This document shows, piece after piece, positions 3,295-11,400 of a DNA stretch of 62,507 nt. Both the position numbers and the translations under genes were made by a program. Below the pieces are notes generated by a model that was not told the origin of the DNA, did not search any database, and saw only the letters and a program-made list of their open reading frames with translations. How positions within the stretch are numbered: the stretch's first letter is position 1; every line of letters starts with the position of its first letter. The DNA is from Chloroflexota bacterium (lineage in GTDB: Bacteria; Chloroflexota; Limnocylindria; Limnocylindrales; CSP1-4): positions 1-62,507 of the forward strand of contig JAICUI010000012.1 of NCBI GenBank assembly GCA_025935925.1, given 5' to 3'.

Positions 3295-3648
3295 ATGGAC
3301 GACGAACCGGTCCCCGAGACGCGCGGTGTCAGCGTGGAGGTCCTCGGCACGTTCGACCTCGGCCCCGAGATCGAAGCCATCGACGGGCGGCACCTCCGGA
3401 TGCGGCGTTTCACGTTCGAGCCTGGAGCGGTGTTCGGACCGCTGCACGACCATCGCGGACGCCCCGGGATGGTGTACATCCTCGAGGGCACGATCACCGA
3501 TCATCGAAACGGGGTTGCGACGGACTACGGCCCCGGCGCGGGCTGGCCCGAGGATCGCGACACGGTCCACTGGCTCGAGAACCGGGGGACCGTCCCGGCG
3601 GTGGAGATCTCCGTCGACATCGTCAGCAGCGAACGGAGCATGCGTTGA
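3295..3648 (+). CDS. Cupin-domain protein
   Basis: A single-domain cupin of 117 residues. The first cupin motif is visible as GPLHDHRGRPGMVYILEGT (two histidines plus a downstream glutamate as metal ligands). The second motif follows as DTVHWLENRG. Small cupins of this kind bind a divalent metal and act as dioxygenases, isomerases or ligand sensors, and the substrate cannot be read here. I start at the ATG at 3295; a longer open frame upstream to 3127 looks non-coding. Its TGA at 3646-3648 overlaps the TTG of the broken oxidoreductase fragment that follows, so the two were probably once an operon. Confidence 0.75.
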   Translation: MDDEPVPETRGVSVEVLGTFDLGPEIEAIDGRHLRMRRFTFEPGAVFGPLHDHRGRPGMVYILEGTITDHRNGVATDYGPGAGWPEDRDTVHWLENRGTVPAVEISVDIVSSERSMR

Positions 3649-3758
3649 ACGACGTCAAGATCGGGGCCCTGTGCTGGAACCAGTACACGGAGTGGCCCGC
3701 CCTCCTCCAGGCCGGGATCCGGGCCGACGAGCTCGGCTTCGACAGCCTCTGGACCTGA
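3645..3758 (+). pseudogene. Truncated 5' fragment of an LLM-class oxidoreductase
   Basis: Thirty-seven codons from TTG 3645 to TGA 3756-3758 encode a near copy of the start of the full oxidoreductase at 4301. After the start codon 29 of 36 residues match, including IGALCWNQYT and LLQAGIRADELG. The match ends at the shared LWT, where the intact gene continues with WDHLYP and this copy reaches a stop. Synonymous positions differ widely between the copies, so it is not a fresh tandem duplication. It overlaps the cupin stop as a natural downstream gene would, which suggests this is the original start of the gene, cut off by the 3760-4400 insertion. Confidence 0.75.
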
Positions 3759-3813
3759 GTTCTCGGGCACCTGTGTCGTACTTGAAGGCAAGCGCCGAAT
3801 CAGGAGAAGCGTG

Positions 3814-4281
3814 ATGCGGCTCGATGGTCGTGCCGGGAGAGCCCTCGAACTCACCATCGATGGGTACCAGTTCCCCGGCATGGCGGCTGAACCCGACGGC
3901 TTCGACTTCGATGCGAACTGGCTGATCATCAGGGGCCGTGTCAGCGACGGGGCGCGCGAGTGGACCTTCCGGGATCCTTGCCTCCTCACGGATGAGGCAC
4001 GCGAACTCGCTGCATGGCTAGAGGCCGTGGCGACTGACTGGCGCGACCTGGACGCGACCGACTTCATCGAGCCGAACCTGGAGTTTCGGAGAGTCTCAGC
4101 TCCGGGAGACGCGCCGGTCATCCGCGTGACGCTGAGACTCGAAGCTCGTCCGCCATGGACAGGCGATGTGTCCGAGGACGATTGGGATAAGCACTTCATC
4201 GAGCTGGAGCTGTCCCGGGAAGCACTCGCGGCGGCCGCCAGCGACCTGAGGGACGAGCTCAAGCGATACCCGAAGCGGTAG
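3814..4281 (+). CDS. WapI-type immunity-like protein
   Basis: A soluble 155-residue protein. LELTIDGYQFP, DANWLIIRGRV and WTFRDPCLLTDEARELAAWL resemble a family usually annotated as WapI-type immunity proteins, which neutralise secreted contact-dependent toxins. That assignment is from memory of the family pattern and is moderate. An AGGAG lies seven bases before the ATG at 3814; a GTG at 3811 is the alternative. Two 60-base stretches I counted inside the gene are 62% and 65% GC, well below neighbouring genes, and codons such as GAA, GAT and CTA are commoner. It lies between the two copies of an oxidoreductase 5' end, so it probably arrived by transfer. No toxin gene is present. Confidence 0.6.
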   Translation: MRLDGRAGRALELTIDGYQFPGMAAEPDGFDFDANWLIIRGRVSDGAREWTFRDPCLLTDEARELAAWLEAVATDWRDLDATDFIEPNLEFRRVSAPGDAPVIRVTLRLEARPPWTGDVSEDDWDKHFIELELSREALAAAASDLRDELKRYPKR

Positions 4282-4300
4282 AACGGAATGGAGAGAACCA

Positions 4301-5239
4301 GTGACCGAAGTCAAGATCGGAGCCCTTTGCTGGAACCAGTACACCGACTGGCCGAGCTTGCTCCAGGCGGGCATCCGGGCTGACGAACTCGGCTACTCGA
4401 CCCTTTGGACGTGGGACCACCTCTACCCCATCGTCGGCGATTCCGAGGGGCCCAACTACGAGGGCTGGCTCACGATCACGGCGTGGGCGCAGGCGACGAA
4501 GCGCGTCCGCGTCGGGCTCATGGTCGGCGCGAACACGTTCCGGGCTCCGACGCTCACCGCGAAGCTCGCGACCACGCTCGACCACATCTCGAACGGGCGC
4601 GCGATCCTCGGCATCGGCGGCGCGTGGTTCGAGGAGGAGCACGAGGCGTTCGGGCTCGACTTCGGGTCCGGCTTCCCAGAGCGGCTGCGGTGGCTGGGCG
4701 AGGCCGTGCCGATCATGCGCGGGATGCTCGACGGCACCGAGCCCTCGGCGAAGGGCGACCACTACCACGCGAAGGATGTCCGCAACCTCCCGGCGCCGGT
4801 CCAGCAGCACCTCCCGATCTGCATCGGTGGTGGTGGCGAGCAGGTCACGCTCCGCCTCGTGGCCCGGTACGCCGACATGAACAACGTCGGCGGCGGGATC
4901 GAGAACGTCCGGCGCAAGGAGGAGGTCCTGCTGCGCCACTGCGAGGAGGTCGGCCGCGACCCGTCGACGATCGAGCGCACGACGGGCATCGGGACCGTGT
5001 TCATCCGCGACGACCGGAAGGAGGCCGAGCGGCTGTTCCACGCCGCCTTCGAGCGAAACCGCGTCGCGAAGCACTGGACGGACCAGCCGGTGGGAACGGT
5101 CGACGAGGTCGTCGAGTACCTGAAGCCGTACGTCCAGCTCGGGTACCGGCACCTGATCGCCGGGACGCCGGCCGACTACGACGAGGAGTCGATGACGCGG
5201 TTCGCGACCGAGGTCCGGCCGCGGCTCGAGCAGCTCTAG
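4301..5239 (+). CDS. LLM-class F420-dependent oxidoreductase
   Basis: A 312-residue bacterial-luciferase-fold enzyme, predicted to use coenzyme F420 (or flavin) for hydride transfer. Features include the N-terminal IGALCWNQYT strand, TLWTWDHLYP, VGANTFRAPTLTAKLA, and the conserved GRAILGIGGAWFEEEHEAFG loop typical of F420-type family members. The start is GTG 4301 with GGAGAG about six bases upstream. The first 110 bases use lower-GC codons (GAA, GGA, CTT, TTG, GCT), whereas the rest is host-like; the switch falls near LWT|WDHL, the same point where the upstream fragment breaks. The gene therefore looks chimeric but in frame and functional. Its 3' end overlaps the convergent CGNR gene by four bases. 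Confidence 0.9.
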   Translation: MTEVKIGALCWNQYTDWPSLLQAGIRADELGYSTLWTWDHLYPIVGDSEGPNYEGWLTITAWAQATKRVRVGLMVGANTFRAPTLTAKLATTLDHISNGRAILGIGGAWFEEEHEAFGLDFGSGFPERLRWLGEAVPIMRGMLDGTEPSAKGDHYHAKDVRNLPAPVQQHLPICIGGGGEQVTLRLVARYADMNNVGGGIENVRRKEEVLLRHCEEVGRDPSTIERTTGIGTVFIRDDRKEAERLFHAAFERNRVAKHWTDQPVGTVDEVVEYLKPYVQLGYRHLIAGTPADYDEESMTRFATEVRPRLEQL

Positions 5240-5874
5240 AGCGGCGGACCCACCGCGGGCCCGTCGCCGCCGGCACCCTTCCGTCGCTCGCGGTAGCGAC
5301 GGACCTTCGCCCGATTCCCGCAGCTGGACATGTCGCACCAGCGGCGCCGGCCCGCCCGCGACTCGTCCTCGAACACCCAACGGCACTCGTCGTTGGCGCA
5401 CACCCGGAAGCGGGCCGTCCGGTCCTCGGCGATCGCCTCGACGAGCGGCGTCGCGATTCTCGCCAGGGCCTCTCCCGTCGGGTCGTCGTCGGGATGACGG
5501 TGGCTCACCTCGACGCCGTCGGCCGTGCCACGCAGCTCGACGCGGGGTCCACGATCGAGGAGGGTGTTCAGCATCTCGAGGGCGTCGCTCGACGGCGGGC
5601 GATGCTCGACGACCGCATCCCAGACCTCGCGCATCGCGGAGCGAGCGGCCGCGATCCGCGCGAGCCATCGGTCGCCTTCACGCGACGCCTGGGCGCGGAG
5701 CGCATCTTCGTGGCCGAGCCCGTGGTGGGCGAGAAAACCGATGCCCGCCTCGGGCGTCGCCAAGGCGTCGGTGGGGCCGTCGTCGCCGAGCTCAAGCGTG
5801 TTGATCAGATCCTGGCTGGCGCCGAGGGAGGCCGTGTGGTCGTGCTCGTGGATGGGAACCGTGTCGATGTGCAT
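5236..5874 (-). CDS. CGNR zinc-finger (ABATE-domain) regulator
   Basis: A 212-residue protein with an N-terminal ABATE-type helical region (LGASQDLINTLEL opening) and a C-terminal CGNR zinc finger: CANDEC, then WCDMSSCGNRAKVRRYRER. The four cysteines would bind one zinc, and the basic tail fits DNA binding. Proteins of this family are treated as transcriptional regulators whose ABATE domain is thought to sense a small ligand. It is divergent from the two small genes at 5994-6388, and two palindromes lie in the shared upstream region, so autoregulation and control of those genes is the natural inference. It overlaps the oxidoreductase end by four bases on the opposite strand. Confidence 0.88.
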   Translation of the reverse strand: MHIDTVPIHEHDHTASLGASQDLINTLELGDDGPTDALATPEAGIGFLAHHGLGHEDALRAQASREGDRWLARIAAARSAMREVWDAVVEHRPPSSDALEMLNTLLDRGPRVELRGTADGVEVSHRHPDDDPTGEALARIATPLVEAIAEDRTARFRVCANDECRWVFEDESRAGRRRWCDMSSCGNRAKVRRYRERRKGAGGDGPAVGPPL

Positions 5875-6833: not shown

Positions 6834-7568
6834 TCAGATCCCCGAGCCTCGGTCGTCGTTCGAGCCGGGCTTCCGCCGAAGGCTCGGTCGAGGCAGCCGC
6901 CGTACGCCCGACCGCGCTGCCGATGCTGCCGTCGCGACCGCGGCGCGCGTGGCCGGCGCCGTCGCCGTGCCGATCTTCACGACGCGGAGCGCCACGGGAC
7001 GCGCCCTGTCGAGCACCTGGTCGGCTGCGGCCGGAACCGTCGCGCGGGTCGTCGTGGCCACCGCGCTCGCCCGCCTCGCCGCGGCTGGGACGGTCCGCCG
7101 GGCCGTGCCCGCCGCCTTGCCGGCCGTCGCCGCACCGCCGCGAATGACCTTTCCCGTGGTCCGGCCGCCGGCGCGGAGCGTCCACGCCGTCGTGACGCCA
7201 ACCGTACGGAGGTCGTCGGCGAGATCGCCGTCGGCGAGGCCGACCGCATCGAGGTGCTCACGCCGGCGGGCAGGATCGAGGCCGGCCATCGCGAACCGCA
7301 GCGCGGCGAGGACGACGGCGATGTCGTCCAGCTGGCCGACGACCGGGATCACGCCCGGAACCGCATCGATGGGCGACACGAGGTAGCCCGCGGCGGCGAT
7401 GACCGCCGCGCGGCGCGCGCGACTGATCAGCGGGTCGCGGCCCAGGCGCCACGCGAGCTTCGCGTAGCGCGGCATGCGGCGAATCGTCGAGGCGAAGCGC
7501 TCGCGCGGGAACGGGTCGGCGGCAGACACGGCGCGATCGTAAACGGCGTCCGCCATCGCGTGGCGCAT
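6834..7568 (-). CDS. DUF1232 (YkvA-type) protein with alanine-rich tail
   Basis: A protein of about 244 residues. The middle holds the DUF1232 signature YLVSPIDAVPGVIPVVGQLDD, a short membrane-associated helical hairpin. The C-terminal 120 residues are low-complexity alanine, threonine and arginine sequence with no recognisable fold. The start is uncertain: ATG 7568 and ATG 7556 are in frame and neither has a clear ribosome site. The frame is open further to 7859, but that part is arginine-rich and looks like shadow of comEA. Function is unknown for the whole family. Confidence 0.65.
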   Translation of the reverse strand: MRHAMADAVYDRAVSAADPFPRERFASTIRRMPRYAKLAWRLGRDPLISRARRAAVIAAAGYLVSPIDAVPGVIPVVGQLDDIAVVLAALRFAMAGLDPARRREHLDAVGLADGDLADDLRTVGVTTAWTLRAGGRTTGKVIRGGAATAGKAAGTARRTVPAAARRASAVATTTRATVPAAADQVLDRARPVALRVVKIGTATAPATRAAVATAASAARSGVRRLPRPSLRRKPGSNDDRGSGI

Positions 7569-7708
7569 CGCGGCACGGGACGTAAGTCGCAGATAAGTGG
7601 CACTCCGTAGAGTCCGTCCCGGACGCCCATCCCGGAGGACGTGCCCCCTGCGGGACGGGCGTTCCACGCAACCTTCCGCCGCCGGTCCCGCCCGGGAGAC
7701 GACCACCC

Positions 7709-8413
7709 GTGGAGCCGTCCGGCGCGCCGTGGCGCGTCCTCGAGACCGCCGAACCCGCTGCCACGCGCGAGTCGCAGGCATCGCCGCCGCCGCGCGTGCC
7801 ATGGATCGCCGTCGCGATCGGCGTGCTGGCGCTCGTCGTCGGCGCCGTCGCAGTCGCAATCACCCTGAGCTCCACGCCGATCGTCGGCGTCGACGGTGCC
7901 GCGCCGTATGCCGCCGGGTCGATCGCCGCATCAGACGCGCCGTCCGCGTCCGGCACCGCGTCGGCCGACCTCGTCGTGGACGTCTCGGGCGCCGTCGTGC
8001 ATCCCGGGTTGTACCGCCTCCGACCGGGCTCGCGGGTCGGCGACGCGATCAGGGCCGCCGGCGGCTACGCGGGCAGCGTGGACGCCGTGCTGGCTGACCG
8101 CGAGCTGAACCTCGCGGCGGCGGTGCACGACGGCGACAAGGTCCGCGTGCCGGTACGGGGCGACGCGGCCGCGGCGTCGAGCGCCAGTTCGGCCGGGGCC
8201 GGTGGCCGGCCCGCCGGCGGTCCGGTCGACCTCAACCGCGCGACCGCGGACGAGCTCGACACGCTGCCCGGCATCGGCCCGGCGACGGCCGCCAAGATCA
8301 TCGCCGCCCGGGAGCAACAGCCGTTCACGACGATCGACGACCTCGGCACGCGGAAGGTCGTCGGCCAGGCGACGCTCGAGAAGCTGCGGCCCCTCGTGAC
8401 CGTCGGGCCGTGA
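7709..8413 (+). CDS. comEA: ComEA competence DNA-binding protein
   Basis: A 234-residue DNA receptor of the natural-transformation machine. It has a cytoplasmic head, one membrane helix (about residues 32-53, VAIGVLALVVGAVAVAI), a soluble-ligand-binding-beta-grasp (SLBB) domain beginning VVDVSGAVVHPGLYRL, and a C-terminal helix-hairpin-helix pair (VDLNRATADELDTLPGIGPATAAKIIAAR) that grips double-stranded DNA outside the membrane. The start is GTG 7709. The TGA overlaps the GTG of comEC in a GTGA junction, so the two are translationally coupled. Confidence 0.93.
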   Translation: MEPSGAPWRVLETAEPAATRESQASPPPRVPWIAVAIGVLALVVGAVAVAITLSSTPIVGVDGAAPYAAGSIAASDAPSASGTASADLVVDVSGAVVHPGLYRLRPGSRVGDAIRAAGGYAGSVDAVLADRELNLAAAVHDGDKVRVPVRGDAAAASSASSAGAGGRPAGGPVDLNRATADELDTLPGIGPATAAKIIAAREQQPFTTIDDLGTRKVVGQATLEKLRPLVTVGP

Positions 8414-11400
8414 CCCGAGCGCCGCGCGCGACCTGGCTCGCGGTCGGGACGGCGCTCGCCGCGGCATGGGCCTGGCTCGGCCTGTCGCCGGTTGCCGCGG
8501 TCGCCGTCGCGCTCGCCGCCGTGGCGGTCGGCGGGGCGGCGCGGCCGTTCGCGGCGCGATCGAGCGGCCGCGTCGCGCACCTTCCCGCAATGGCGATCGC
8601 GGCGGGCGCCGGGGCAGCGCTCCTCGGCCTGCGGGTCATGCTCGGGCCCGCGGCCTGGCAGCCTCCACCGCTGCCCGACGGAACCGGGCCGTGGCGAGCC
8701 ATCGTCGTGTCGGTCGGATCGCCACGCGACGGCTCCCAGCAGGCGCGCCTCGCCCTGCTGACCGCGGACCCGGATCCCGAGGTGGCGGCGACGCTCCCGG
8801 CGTTTCCGGTCGTCCGGACCGGGGCGACGGTGGAGGTCGGTGGCCGGCTGGAACCGCCGCCGGAGGACGACCCCTACGGCGAGTACCTGCGGCGCACCCA
8901 GACGGCCGGCACGCTGCAGGCCCGCCGGCTCGTCCTGATCGCCGCCGCGGACGGCGTCACGCTCCAGGCCGCTCGCGATGCGGCCGGCGACGCGCTCCGG
9001 ATCGCGCTGCCCGAGCCGGAGGCCGGCCTGGCAGCCGGGGTCCTGATCGGGCTCCGCGAGCGCGTCGATCGTCAGCTCGCCGCGGACTTCGCGACGGCCG
9101 GTGCGAGCCACGTCGTCGCGATCTCCGGGTGGAACATCGCGATCGTGGCCGGCCTCGTCACGGCGGTGCTGCGAGGGCGTCCCCGGCGACTGGTCGCGCT
9201 CGGCGTCGGCGGCACGATCGTCGCGTACGTCATCGCCGCAGGCGCCTCGCCGTCGGTCGTGCGCGCGGCGGTGATGGCCGGGGTCGTCCTGACCGCCCGC
9301 GAGTCCGGCCGCGCCGGACGGGCCGCGCCCGCCCTCGCGCTGGCGGCGGCGCTGATGCTGATGGCCGAGCCCGCCATGATCGGCGACGCCGGGTTCCGGC
9401 TGTCGGTCGCCGCGACGGCGGGTCTCCTCGCTTGGGCGACACCGCTCGGCCGATGGATCGGGTCGTTGCGCGGCGGACGCGTCCCGGCGTGGCTCGCGGA
9501 AGGGCTCGGCATCTCGCTGGCCGCGCAGGCCGCGACCCTGCCCGACGTCCTCGTCACGTTCGGGCGGTTGTCGGTGGTGGCGCCCGGCGTGAACCTCCTG
9601 GTCGTGCCGCTCGTGCCGGCGGCGATGGCGGCGGGGGTCGTCGCCATGGCGGGCGGGACCGCCACGATGCTCGGCGTTCCCCCTCTCGTCGCGACGGTCG
9701 CCGGCCTTCCCGGGTGGCTGATCCTCCACGCGATCGTGCTCGTCATCCGGGTCGCGGCCGCCGTCCCGTTCGCCGCGGTCGCGATCCCGCCCGAGATCGC
9801 GCCGCTGGTCGCGCTGATCCCCGCGCTCGCGGTGATCGCGGCGCCGTCGGCGATCCGGGCGGCGCGACATCGACGCGGCCGGCGGCGGGCGTCGCCATCA
9901 CATCCGGCCGCGGTCGCTCGGGCCCCAGGCCGCCGCCCAGGGACATCGTCGCGTGCGTCCCCGGCCGGTCGCGCGGTGCTCGGCGCCGGCATCGTGGTCG
10001 TCGCGATCTCGACCCTCGCGATCGGTGACGTCGCGGGCCGCGAGGCGCGGATCGTCATGCTCGACGTGGGGCAGGGCGACGCGATCCTCGTCGACGGCGG
10101 GGACGGCTCCCGGATGCTGGTCGACGGCGGCCCCGACCCCGAGCGCCTGCTCCTGCAGCTCGACGCGCGGATCCCGCCATGGGATCGGCGGATCGACGTC
10201 ATCGTCCTGACCCACCCGCACGAGGACCACGTCGCGGGGCTCGTCCGTGTGCTGGAGCGGTACCGCGTCGGCCGGGTGTTCGAGCCGGGCATGCACGGAC
10301 CGGGACCGGGCTGGAACGCGTGGAATGCGGCGCTGCGCGGCGGGCCTCCTCGCGGCATCCTCTCGACCGGCGCCAGGCTGCGCCTCGGCCTCGTCCGCCT
10401 CTCGGTCCTGTGGCCGGATCCCGGCGTCCCGGCCGCACCGGCGGCCACCGGCCGCGGGATCAACGACGTGTCGATCGTCCTGCTCGGCGAGGCCAACGGC
10501 CGTCGCTTCCTCCTGACGGGCGATGCCGAGGACGATGTCGACCCACGGCTCCTTGCCCGCGGCCTCCCGCACCTCGACGTGCTCAAGGTCGCGCACCACG
10601 GCAGCGCCACGGCGACGAGCGCGCCGCTGCTCGCCGCCACGCGACCGACCGTCGCGCTGATCTCCGTCGGCGCGCGCAACGACTACGGCCATCCCGCCCC
10701 GGACACGCTCGGCCGGCTGCGCGATGCCGGCGCGCGGGTGTACCGGACGGACCGCGACGGCACGATCGAGGTCGACCTGCGGCGCGAGGGCCTCGCGGTC
10801 CGGACGGCCGGCCCGGTGACGAAGGCCGCCCGTGGGCCCGCCCGGTACGATGCCGCGCATGCCCGCCCCGAGCCGCGCCGCCGCGGCCCGAACCTTCCTG
10901 TCGCTCGATCCACCGGCGTGGTCCGCGCGGCACGCGTGCGCCGTCGCGGACGTCGCGGCATGGCTGGCACGAGCCGTCGTGCGGCGCGGCCTTCCCGTGG
11001 ACGTGGCGGCGGTCGAGGCCGCGGCCCTCCTCCACGACGTCGACAAGGTCGTCGGCCGGCCGCCGGAGGTGCGGCACGGGGACGGCTCGGCCGCGTGGCT
11101 CGCGGGACATGGCTTCCCGACCCTCGCGCCGCTGGTCCGCGACCATCCCGTGACGCGCCTCGCCGACGACGCCGACGCTGCCCGCCTGCTGGATGCAACG
11201 ATCGAGGCCCGGATCGTGGCCTACGCCGACAAGCGCGCGGGCCAACGCCTGGAGTCGATGGACGACCGGTTCGCTTCGTGGCGACGGCGGTATCCGGCGG
11301 GACCGGCCGATCCACCCTCGGCGGGAGCGCCGGTGCCGGATGGCCGGCCAGTCCCCGGCAAGCGCGGCTGGGACGCCGACGTCGCGGAACGGGTGTACCA

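Follow-up and report, generated by a model that had tools for sequence, protein, structure and literature searches.

How a gene can be parted from its own beginning and still be read as an intact frame is the question raised by a locus in the window, by which we mean the whole 62,507-nt stretch of DNA analysed here, from a 3.3 Mb genome in 120 contigs. The gene encodes an LLM (luciferase-like) oxidoreductase and is intact (4301-5239, GTG start; PF00296 E 4.4e-45), and a second version of its first 37 codons lies upstream. A reading of the sequence alone had noticed this fragment, placed after a cupin gene and ending in LWT, and had proposed that foreign DNA carrying an immunity-like gene and a related 5' end displaced the resident start and restored the frame. 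The fragment is confirmed (Table 1), and the questions that follow are which of the two starts is native, whether the event was unique and what could have produced it.

Table 1. Coordinates of the features at the cupin-LLM locus of the window.
Feature	Position	Strand	Evidence
Cupin gene, 117 aa	3295-3648	+	PF07883 E 2e-10
F, 5' end of LLM read as the displaced resident start, 37 codons, LWT then TGA	3645-3758	+	
Left junction TGGACCTGAG, end of LLM identity	3750-3759	+	
Left-end motif TGTGTCGTA, ~15 nt past the junction	3772-3780	+	
WapI-like immunity-family gene (cargo), 155 aa	3814-4281	+	PF24716 E 2.6e-34
Shine-Dalgarno-like GGAGAG ahead of the new GTG start	4290-4295	+	sequence
G, 5' end of LLM read as the incoming start, 37 codons	4301-4411	+	5' clade, 100/91
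Right junction TGGACGTGGG, join of the putative incoming 5' end and resident body	4406-4415	+	codon-37 identity break, genus-mates
Putative resident body, LLM (F420/FMN-type) oxidoreductase	4412-5239	+	body tree; PF00296

Two starts for one oxidoreductase gene

The coding part of the displaced fragment F (3645-3755) is LNDVKIGALCWNQYTEWPALLQAGIRADELGFDSLWT, followed by the stop TGA at 3756-3758, and its TTG start overlaps the cupin stop codon. F shares 79% nucleotide identity with G (4301-4411), the start of the intact gene, and the insert measures ~656 bp from the start of F to the start of G. GC and GC3 are.68 and 1.00 for F,.65 and.77 for the WapI-like gene,.62 and.84 for G and.70 and.97 for the LLM body, in agreement with the contrasts named in the sequence-only reading. 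Its placement of the join at the LWT codon is likewise borne out by a break in identity at codon 37 among genus-mates. On the minus strand, a CGNR zinc-finger/ABATE regulator (5236-5874) lies 3' of LLM and adjoins it in several genus-mates.

The genomes nearest the window are mostly or all metagenome-assembled genomes (MAGs), the named relatives being Chloroflexi/Limnocylindrales. Between pairs within the genus, the first 111 nt of LLM mostly show 68-82% identity (one pair 88%, one 91%) and the next 111 nt 80-92%, so the even divergence that the earlier reading had listed as a sign against a chimera is not observed. The LLM body of the window has 82-84% nucleotide identity to genus-mates, and the body tree puts it with its own genus. 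The 5' end departs from the genus: in the 111-nt alignment, the new 5' ends of the window, L076, L078, L096, L104 and L057 form one clade (support 100/91). This clade is rejected by the gene bodies with a log-likelihood difference of 294 and an AU p value of 2e-43, a value that is post hoc because the group was named after the 5' ends had been seen; the likelihood difference itself is very large.

In the two relatives L057 and L104, the displaced fragments are nearer to the starts found in those relatives whose bodies are most alike, and the starts of the intact genes are nearest to starts borne by distant bodies. In the window, F clusters with the genus-mate L077, weakly. On the evidence of these trees, F is the resident start in the window and G the incoming one, which supports the chimera proposed earlier. 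The low GC of G had also been considered as proof of foreign origin; alone it is weak because L076 and L078 have low-GC starts as well, and it gained meaning only once the 5' tree had put these starts in the same incoming clade. At another locus (L133), unrelated sequence stands in place of LLM codons 1-17 and codons 18-37 match the incoming type; this may be a deletion derivative.

The gene between F and G points to a foreign origin too. Its product matches the whole WapI profile PF24716 (118.8 bits against a cut-off of 27), and it is missing from all 11 other genomes of the genus; a search of 100 other genomes found it in one. The sole other WapI among the 101 nearest genomes belongs to one distant class member (31% identity), and distant homologues occur in three of 399 other Chloroflexota genomes. 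As to its source, no phage record matched, and the 14 plasmid records that did, mostly from Streptomyces, are below 60% identity and none covers 80%. The term "immunity-like" comes solely from the name of a Pfam family; the toxin partner that the name would suggest was not seen, no toxin or WapA gene being recognised among the open reading frames between leuS and LLM.

Recurrent insertion at codons 37-40 of LLM

Homologues of LLM at E 1e-40 are present in 97 of the 101 genomes nearest the window. Clean LLM 5' fragments cut at codons 37-40 occur at six loci (the window, L042, L057, L055, L056 and L104), each followed by differing cargo (0.5-3.3 kb) and an intact LLM, and decayed fragments are present in L041, L046, L050 and L087. 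Several loci bear two ids (L042 = L085, L055 = L126, L056 = L127, L041 = L083, L046 = L093, L050 = L106), and the id ranges L033-L072 and L076-L155 overlap in loci. Distances from start to start are 656 bp in the window, 2591 in L042, 788 in L055, 792 in L056, 3274 in L057 and ~520 in L104 (518-3274 overall). The truncation point is the same in L042, L057, L055 and L056 and within 9 nt in L104. Because the sister taxa L055 and L056 share their cupin insert, the clean cases represent at least five events, their independence being judged by body divergence and cargo, undated. The LLM oxidoreductase gene is a recurrent insertion hotspot in Limnocylindria, uncultured soil and freshwater Chloroflexota. 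The relatives thus repeat the architecture described in the sequence-only reading, of which the insertion itself stands and its one-off character gives way to a recurrent site-specific hotspot.

The putative attachment site reads TGGAC-N-TGGGACC in DNA and LWT-WD in protein, at codon 37/38 of LLM, and the left junction is TGGAC[CG]TG[AG]G or close to that. The left-end motif of the window insert is common to L042 and, as TGTGTCGT, to L057, in all three inserts ~15 nt past the junction. The pattern TGGACNTGRG-N(7-14)-TGTGTCGT has three matches in 107 family genomes, each at an LLM junction, and its reversed control has none in the same 107. The motif TGTGTCGTA is not present in L055/L056 or L104, and the site may accordingly serve more than one family of elements. 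A right-end motif, GACACACRTGTCCAT, has two matches in 177 class genomes, both inside the insert beside LLM (L042 and L057), and is missing from the window insert; L057, L104 and L078 have AACTTGGATACACAAGTCTCTGGAC in common right before the junction. In L054, leuS is directly upstream of LLM, and a variable stretch lies in between in many relatives.

The cargo is diverse. L057 carries a type II restriction-modification pair (MTase_II E 4e-143, REase_II E 4e-55), L042 has open reading frames of 140 and 277 aa without a Pfam match and L104 has one of ~120 aa without an assigned family. In L076, L077 and L096, a membrane-type protein of 60-73 aa is encoded directly upstream of LLM. The cargo of L055 and L056 is a cupin, in the order LLM fragment, cupin, LLM. 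Across pairs, cupin identity barely tracks LLM body identity (r = 0.18); for example, L127 and L106 share 92% in the cupin and 70% in the body. In the window, the TTG start of F is coupled to the cupin, as in L106, so a previous insertion of this type probably brought the cupin. The coupled start suggests that F, although resident when the WapI insert arrived, had itself come with the cupin, and the window would then hold two stacked events, the cupin insertion followed by the WapI insert. Two further loci may be recorded here: L106/L050 (G033) has one in-frame TAG in its LLM match and a decayed LLM fragment upstream of its cupin, and L135, a contig titled Steroidobacteraceae with a Limnocylindria-like cupin-LLM locus, is likely a mislabelled bin or contamination.

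The starts of LLM fall largely into two classes, namely leaderless-like ATG starts that have a TANNNT box 5-10 nt ahead of them and GTG or TTG starts with a Shine-Dalgarno sequence; no TANNNT box was found on non-ATG LLM starts. The intact LLM has a GTG/TTG start with Shine-Dalgarno in six of six fragment-bearing loci. Of the six displaced fragments, those of L042, L055 and L056 have the leaderless form, and many resident starts look leaderless. An insertion thus alters the start signals of LLM as well, and the gene is presumably still expressed from the new start.

Candidate recombinase and competing explanations

Traces of a recombinase come from the two larger elements. The insert of L057 ends beside LLM with MVAYGYVRKSAITDAKTLSPEVQRERITA on the opposite strand, and a search of 177 genomes with this sequence returned only itself, the LLM junction of L042 (E 6.8e-5, 53%) and a match in G140 (E 1.4e-7, 63%). 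The last is an intact 433-aa serine recombinase (PF00239 E 3.6e-29), and the remnants in L057 and L042 are short, decayed N-termini of a serine integrase adjoining LLM. The G140 enzyme (L199 ~7154-8617, G140:C3) adjoins an ssb gene cut at W|DRLAEIC, with the DNA TGGGACC as at LLM; the 20 kb of contig to the left lack the 5' part of this ssb. Relatives of the enzyme sit divergently beside the starts of ssb, lepA and ndk. In one case (L230 4390-12699, G044:C16), the serine-integrase gene adjoins ndk and the genes that come next resemble DarT/DarG by eye. The far end of this G044 element showed no ndk fragment, and replacement 5' ends were not seen on the G140-type ssb/ndk elements.

No intact integrase was found in the LLM inserts and no trace of one in the window insert, and a search for integrase motifs around LLM at all loci was positive only for L057. 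The statement in the sequence-only reading that there is "no integrase here" is thus correct for the window, and two larger relatives keep a serine-integrase remnant. In a viral collection, the right-end motif, the candidate attP arm and the G140 integrase had no match. A degenerate LLM-start pattern gave 38 matches there, of which only L171 (IMGVR_UViG_3300009646_000250) is a real LLM. L171 is a phage contig (3589-5085 and 9848 to end) with genes for a Prim-Pol, a serine recombinase, a DNA methylase and two terminase small subunits; the contig ends ~190 bp before the start of an intact LLM, and a phage may accordingly use the LLM neighbourhood too.

The recurrent junction, the displaced and replaced ends, the horizontally spread 5' ends and the varied cargo seen at these loci are, with good probability, the work of integrating elements that attach at codon 37/38 of LLM and replace the gene start, the window holding a small derivative. 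The right end of such an element would provide a ribosome-binding site together with the element's own version of the ~111 nt that open LLM. Recombination at the shared core would reduce the resident 5' end to a remnant on the left and would join the 5' end of the element to the resident body in frame, so that the enzyme would be kept while cargo is added upstream. Each new insertion would land beside the LLM body and would thereby displace older cargo upstream. From the remnants we infer a serine integrase of the G140 type as the recombinase. The small inserts may be deletion derivatives or may have been moved in trans; the window insert, with its WapI cargo and without an integrase, is probably a non-autonomous derivative placed after the earlier cupin insertion. 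A more specific version, offered tentatively, is that of one-gene cassettes with an LLM 5' copy, moved in trans by the serine integrase, accreting upstream in an integron-like manner and switching LLM from a leaderless to a ribosome-binding-site-led start.

The strongest competitor, possible and still clearly the less probable account, keeps the site-specific insertion and assigns it to a tyrosine or other recombinase, with the serine remnants as passengers. The integrases of dusA and prfC islands are tyrosine-type, several LLM inserts are without the motif of the two serine-remnant elements, and dyad symmetry in the attP, which was reconstructed and never observed directly, is within the shuffled range. 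Against this, tyrosine integrases were not noticed among the inserts, both larger elements have their serine remnant adjoining the regenerated gene, and intact relatives of the enzyme stand at gene starts. An unlikely account is homology-facilitated illegitimate recombination of a relative's DNA, with a homologous crossover in the LLM 5' region, microhomology at the other end and no dedicated recombinase. It would yield a displaced fragment and a chimeric gene; F and G are 79% identical over 111 nt, and the window insert is without an integrase. Moreover, the identity of F and G of L042 over most of codons 5-34 suggests that homologous exchange takes place there. This account fits poorly with six loci of unrelated cargo whose illegitimate ends all fall at codons 37-40, with shared end motifs and with integrase remnants at two loci.

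Very improbable is an old tandem duplication of the LLM start with decay and a later WapI insertion between the copies: tandem LLM paralogues do exist in some relatives (L061, L066), but the genus has no intact second LLM at the locus, F and G do not group across species as the old paralogues that the sequence-only reading had named as its other counter-sign, and the 5' and body trees conflict sharply. Equally remote is an assembly chimera in a metagenome bin, which the MAG origin of the relatives and the fragmented window genome might suggest, since F and G differ by 21% and are thus not one repeated copy, and the same architecture occurs in bins of independent studies.

Integration at codon 37/38 by elements of this kind would give an uncultured class of bacteria a new hotspot for chromosomal integration. 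The loci provide a natural series of stages, from a 3.3 kb restriction-modification element with an integrase remnant to 0.5-0.8 kb one-gene inserts and decayed fragments, and the series suggests how elements lose mobility while the cargo stays. The N-terminal 37 residues of LLM and its start signals are swapped across genera and the rest is vertical, which is a warning for gene trees drawn from whole genes. If an active integrase were found, the LLM site could be a landing site for genetics in Limnocylindria.

Comparison with known systems

The closest parallel is offered by the dusA-associated genomic islands, which insert in the 5' part of dusA and leave the native 5' end as a remnant (Farrugia 2015, PMC4482086; IMEVchUSA3, PMC8409611). 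These islands supply a new 5' coding end and promoter, restore the frame and are flanked by imperfect direct repeats (PMC4482086; PMC8409611). The LLM inserts similarly keep to one site near the 5' end of a conserved gene, at codons 37-40 in each of six loci, leave a resident remnant and bring an in-frame, element-borne 5' end, as in gene-5'-end-replacing islands of the dusA/prfC type in general. Such islands have an integrase of their own, and the truncated serine remnants in L057 and L042 are the only counterpart at LLM. Further differences are the target, an LLM oxidoreductase (PF00296) cut at codon 37 and not dusA, the Limnocylindria host, the serine type of the remnants, the many single-gene inserts lacking an integrase and the repeated stacking. 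The SXT/R391 ICE in prfC also gives its target gene a new promoter and N-terminus, as cited in PMC8409611; it is large and conjugative and differs from the LLM inserts in target, host and integrase.

Diverse large serine recombinases can converge on one conserved coding-site target (PMC10083194). The G140-type enzyme resembles this class in its resolvase domain and in adjoining its target gene, with N-terminal remnants at LLM and an intact relative at ssb in G140. No intact enzyme was found in the LLM inserts, the reconstructed attP does not show the inverted half-sites that flank a central dinucleotide in elements of this class, and replacement of a 5' end is not a defining feature of the class. 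For integron gene cassettes, the fixed site in a coding sequence argues against membership. No paper on mobile elements of Limnocylindria was found among open PMC papers, and priority is thus not certain. Compared with these systems, what is new is the target gene, the host lineage, the probable serine recombinase and the stacking of one-gene inserts.
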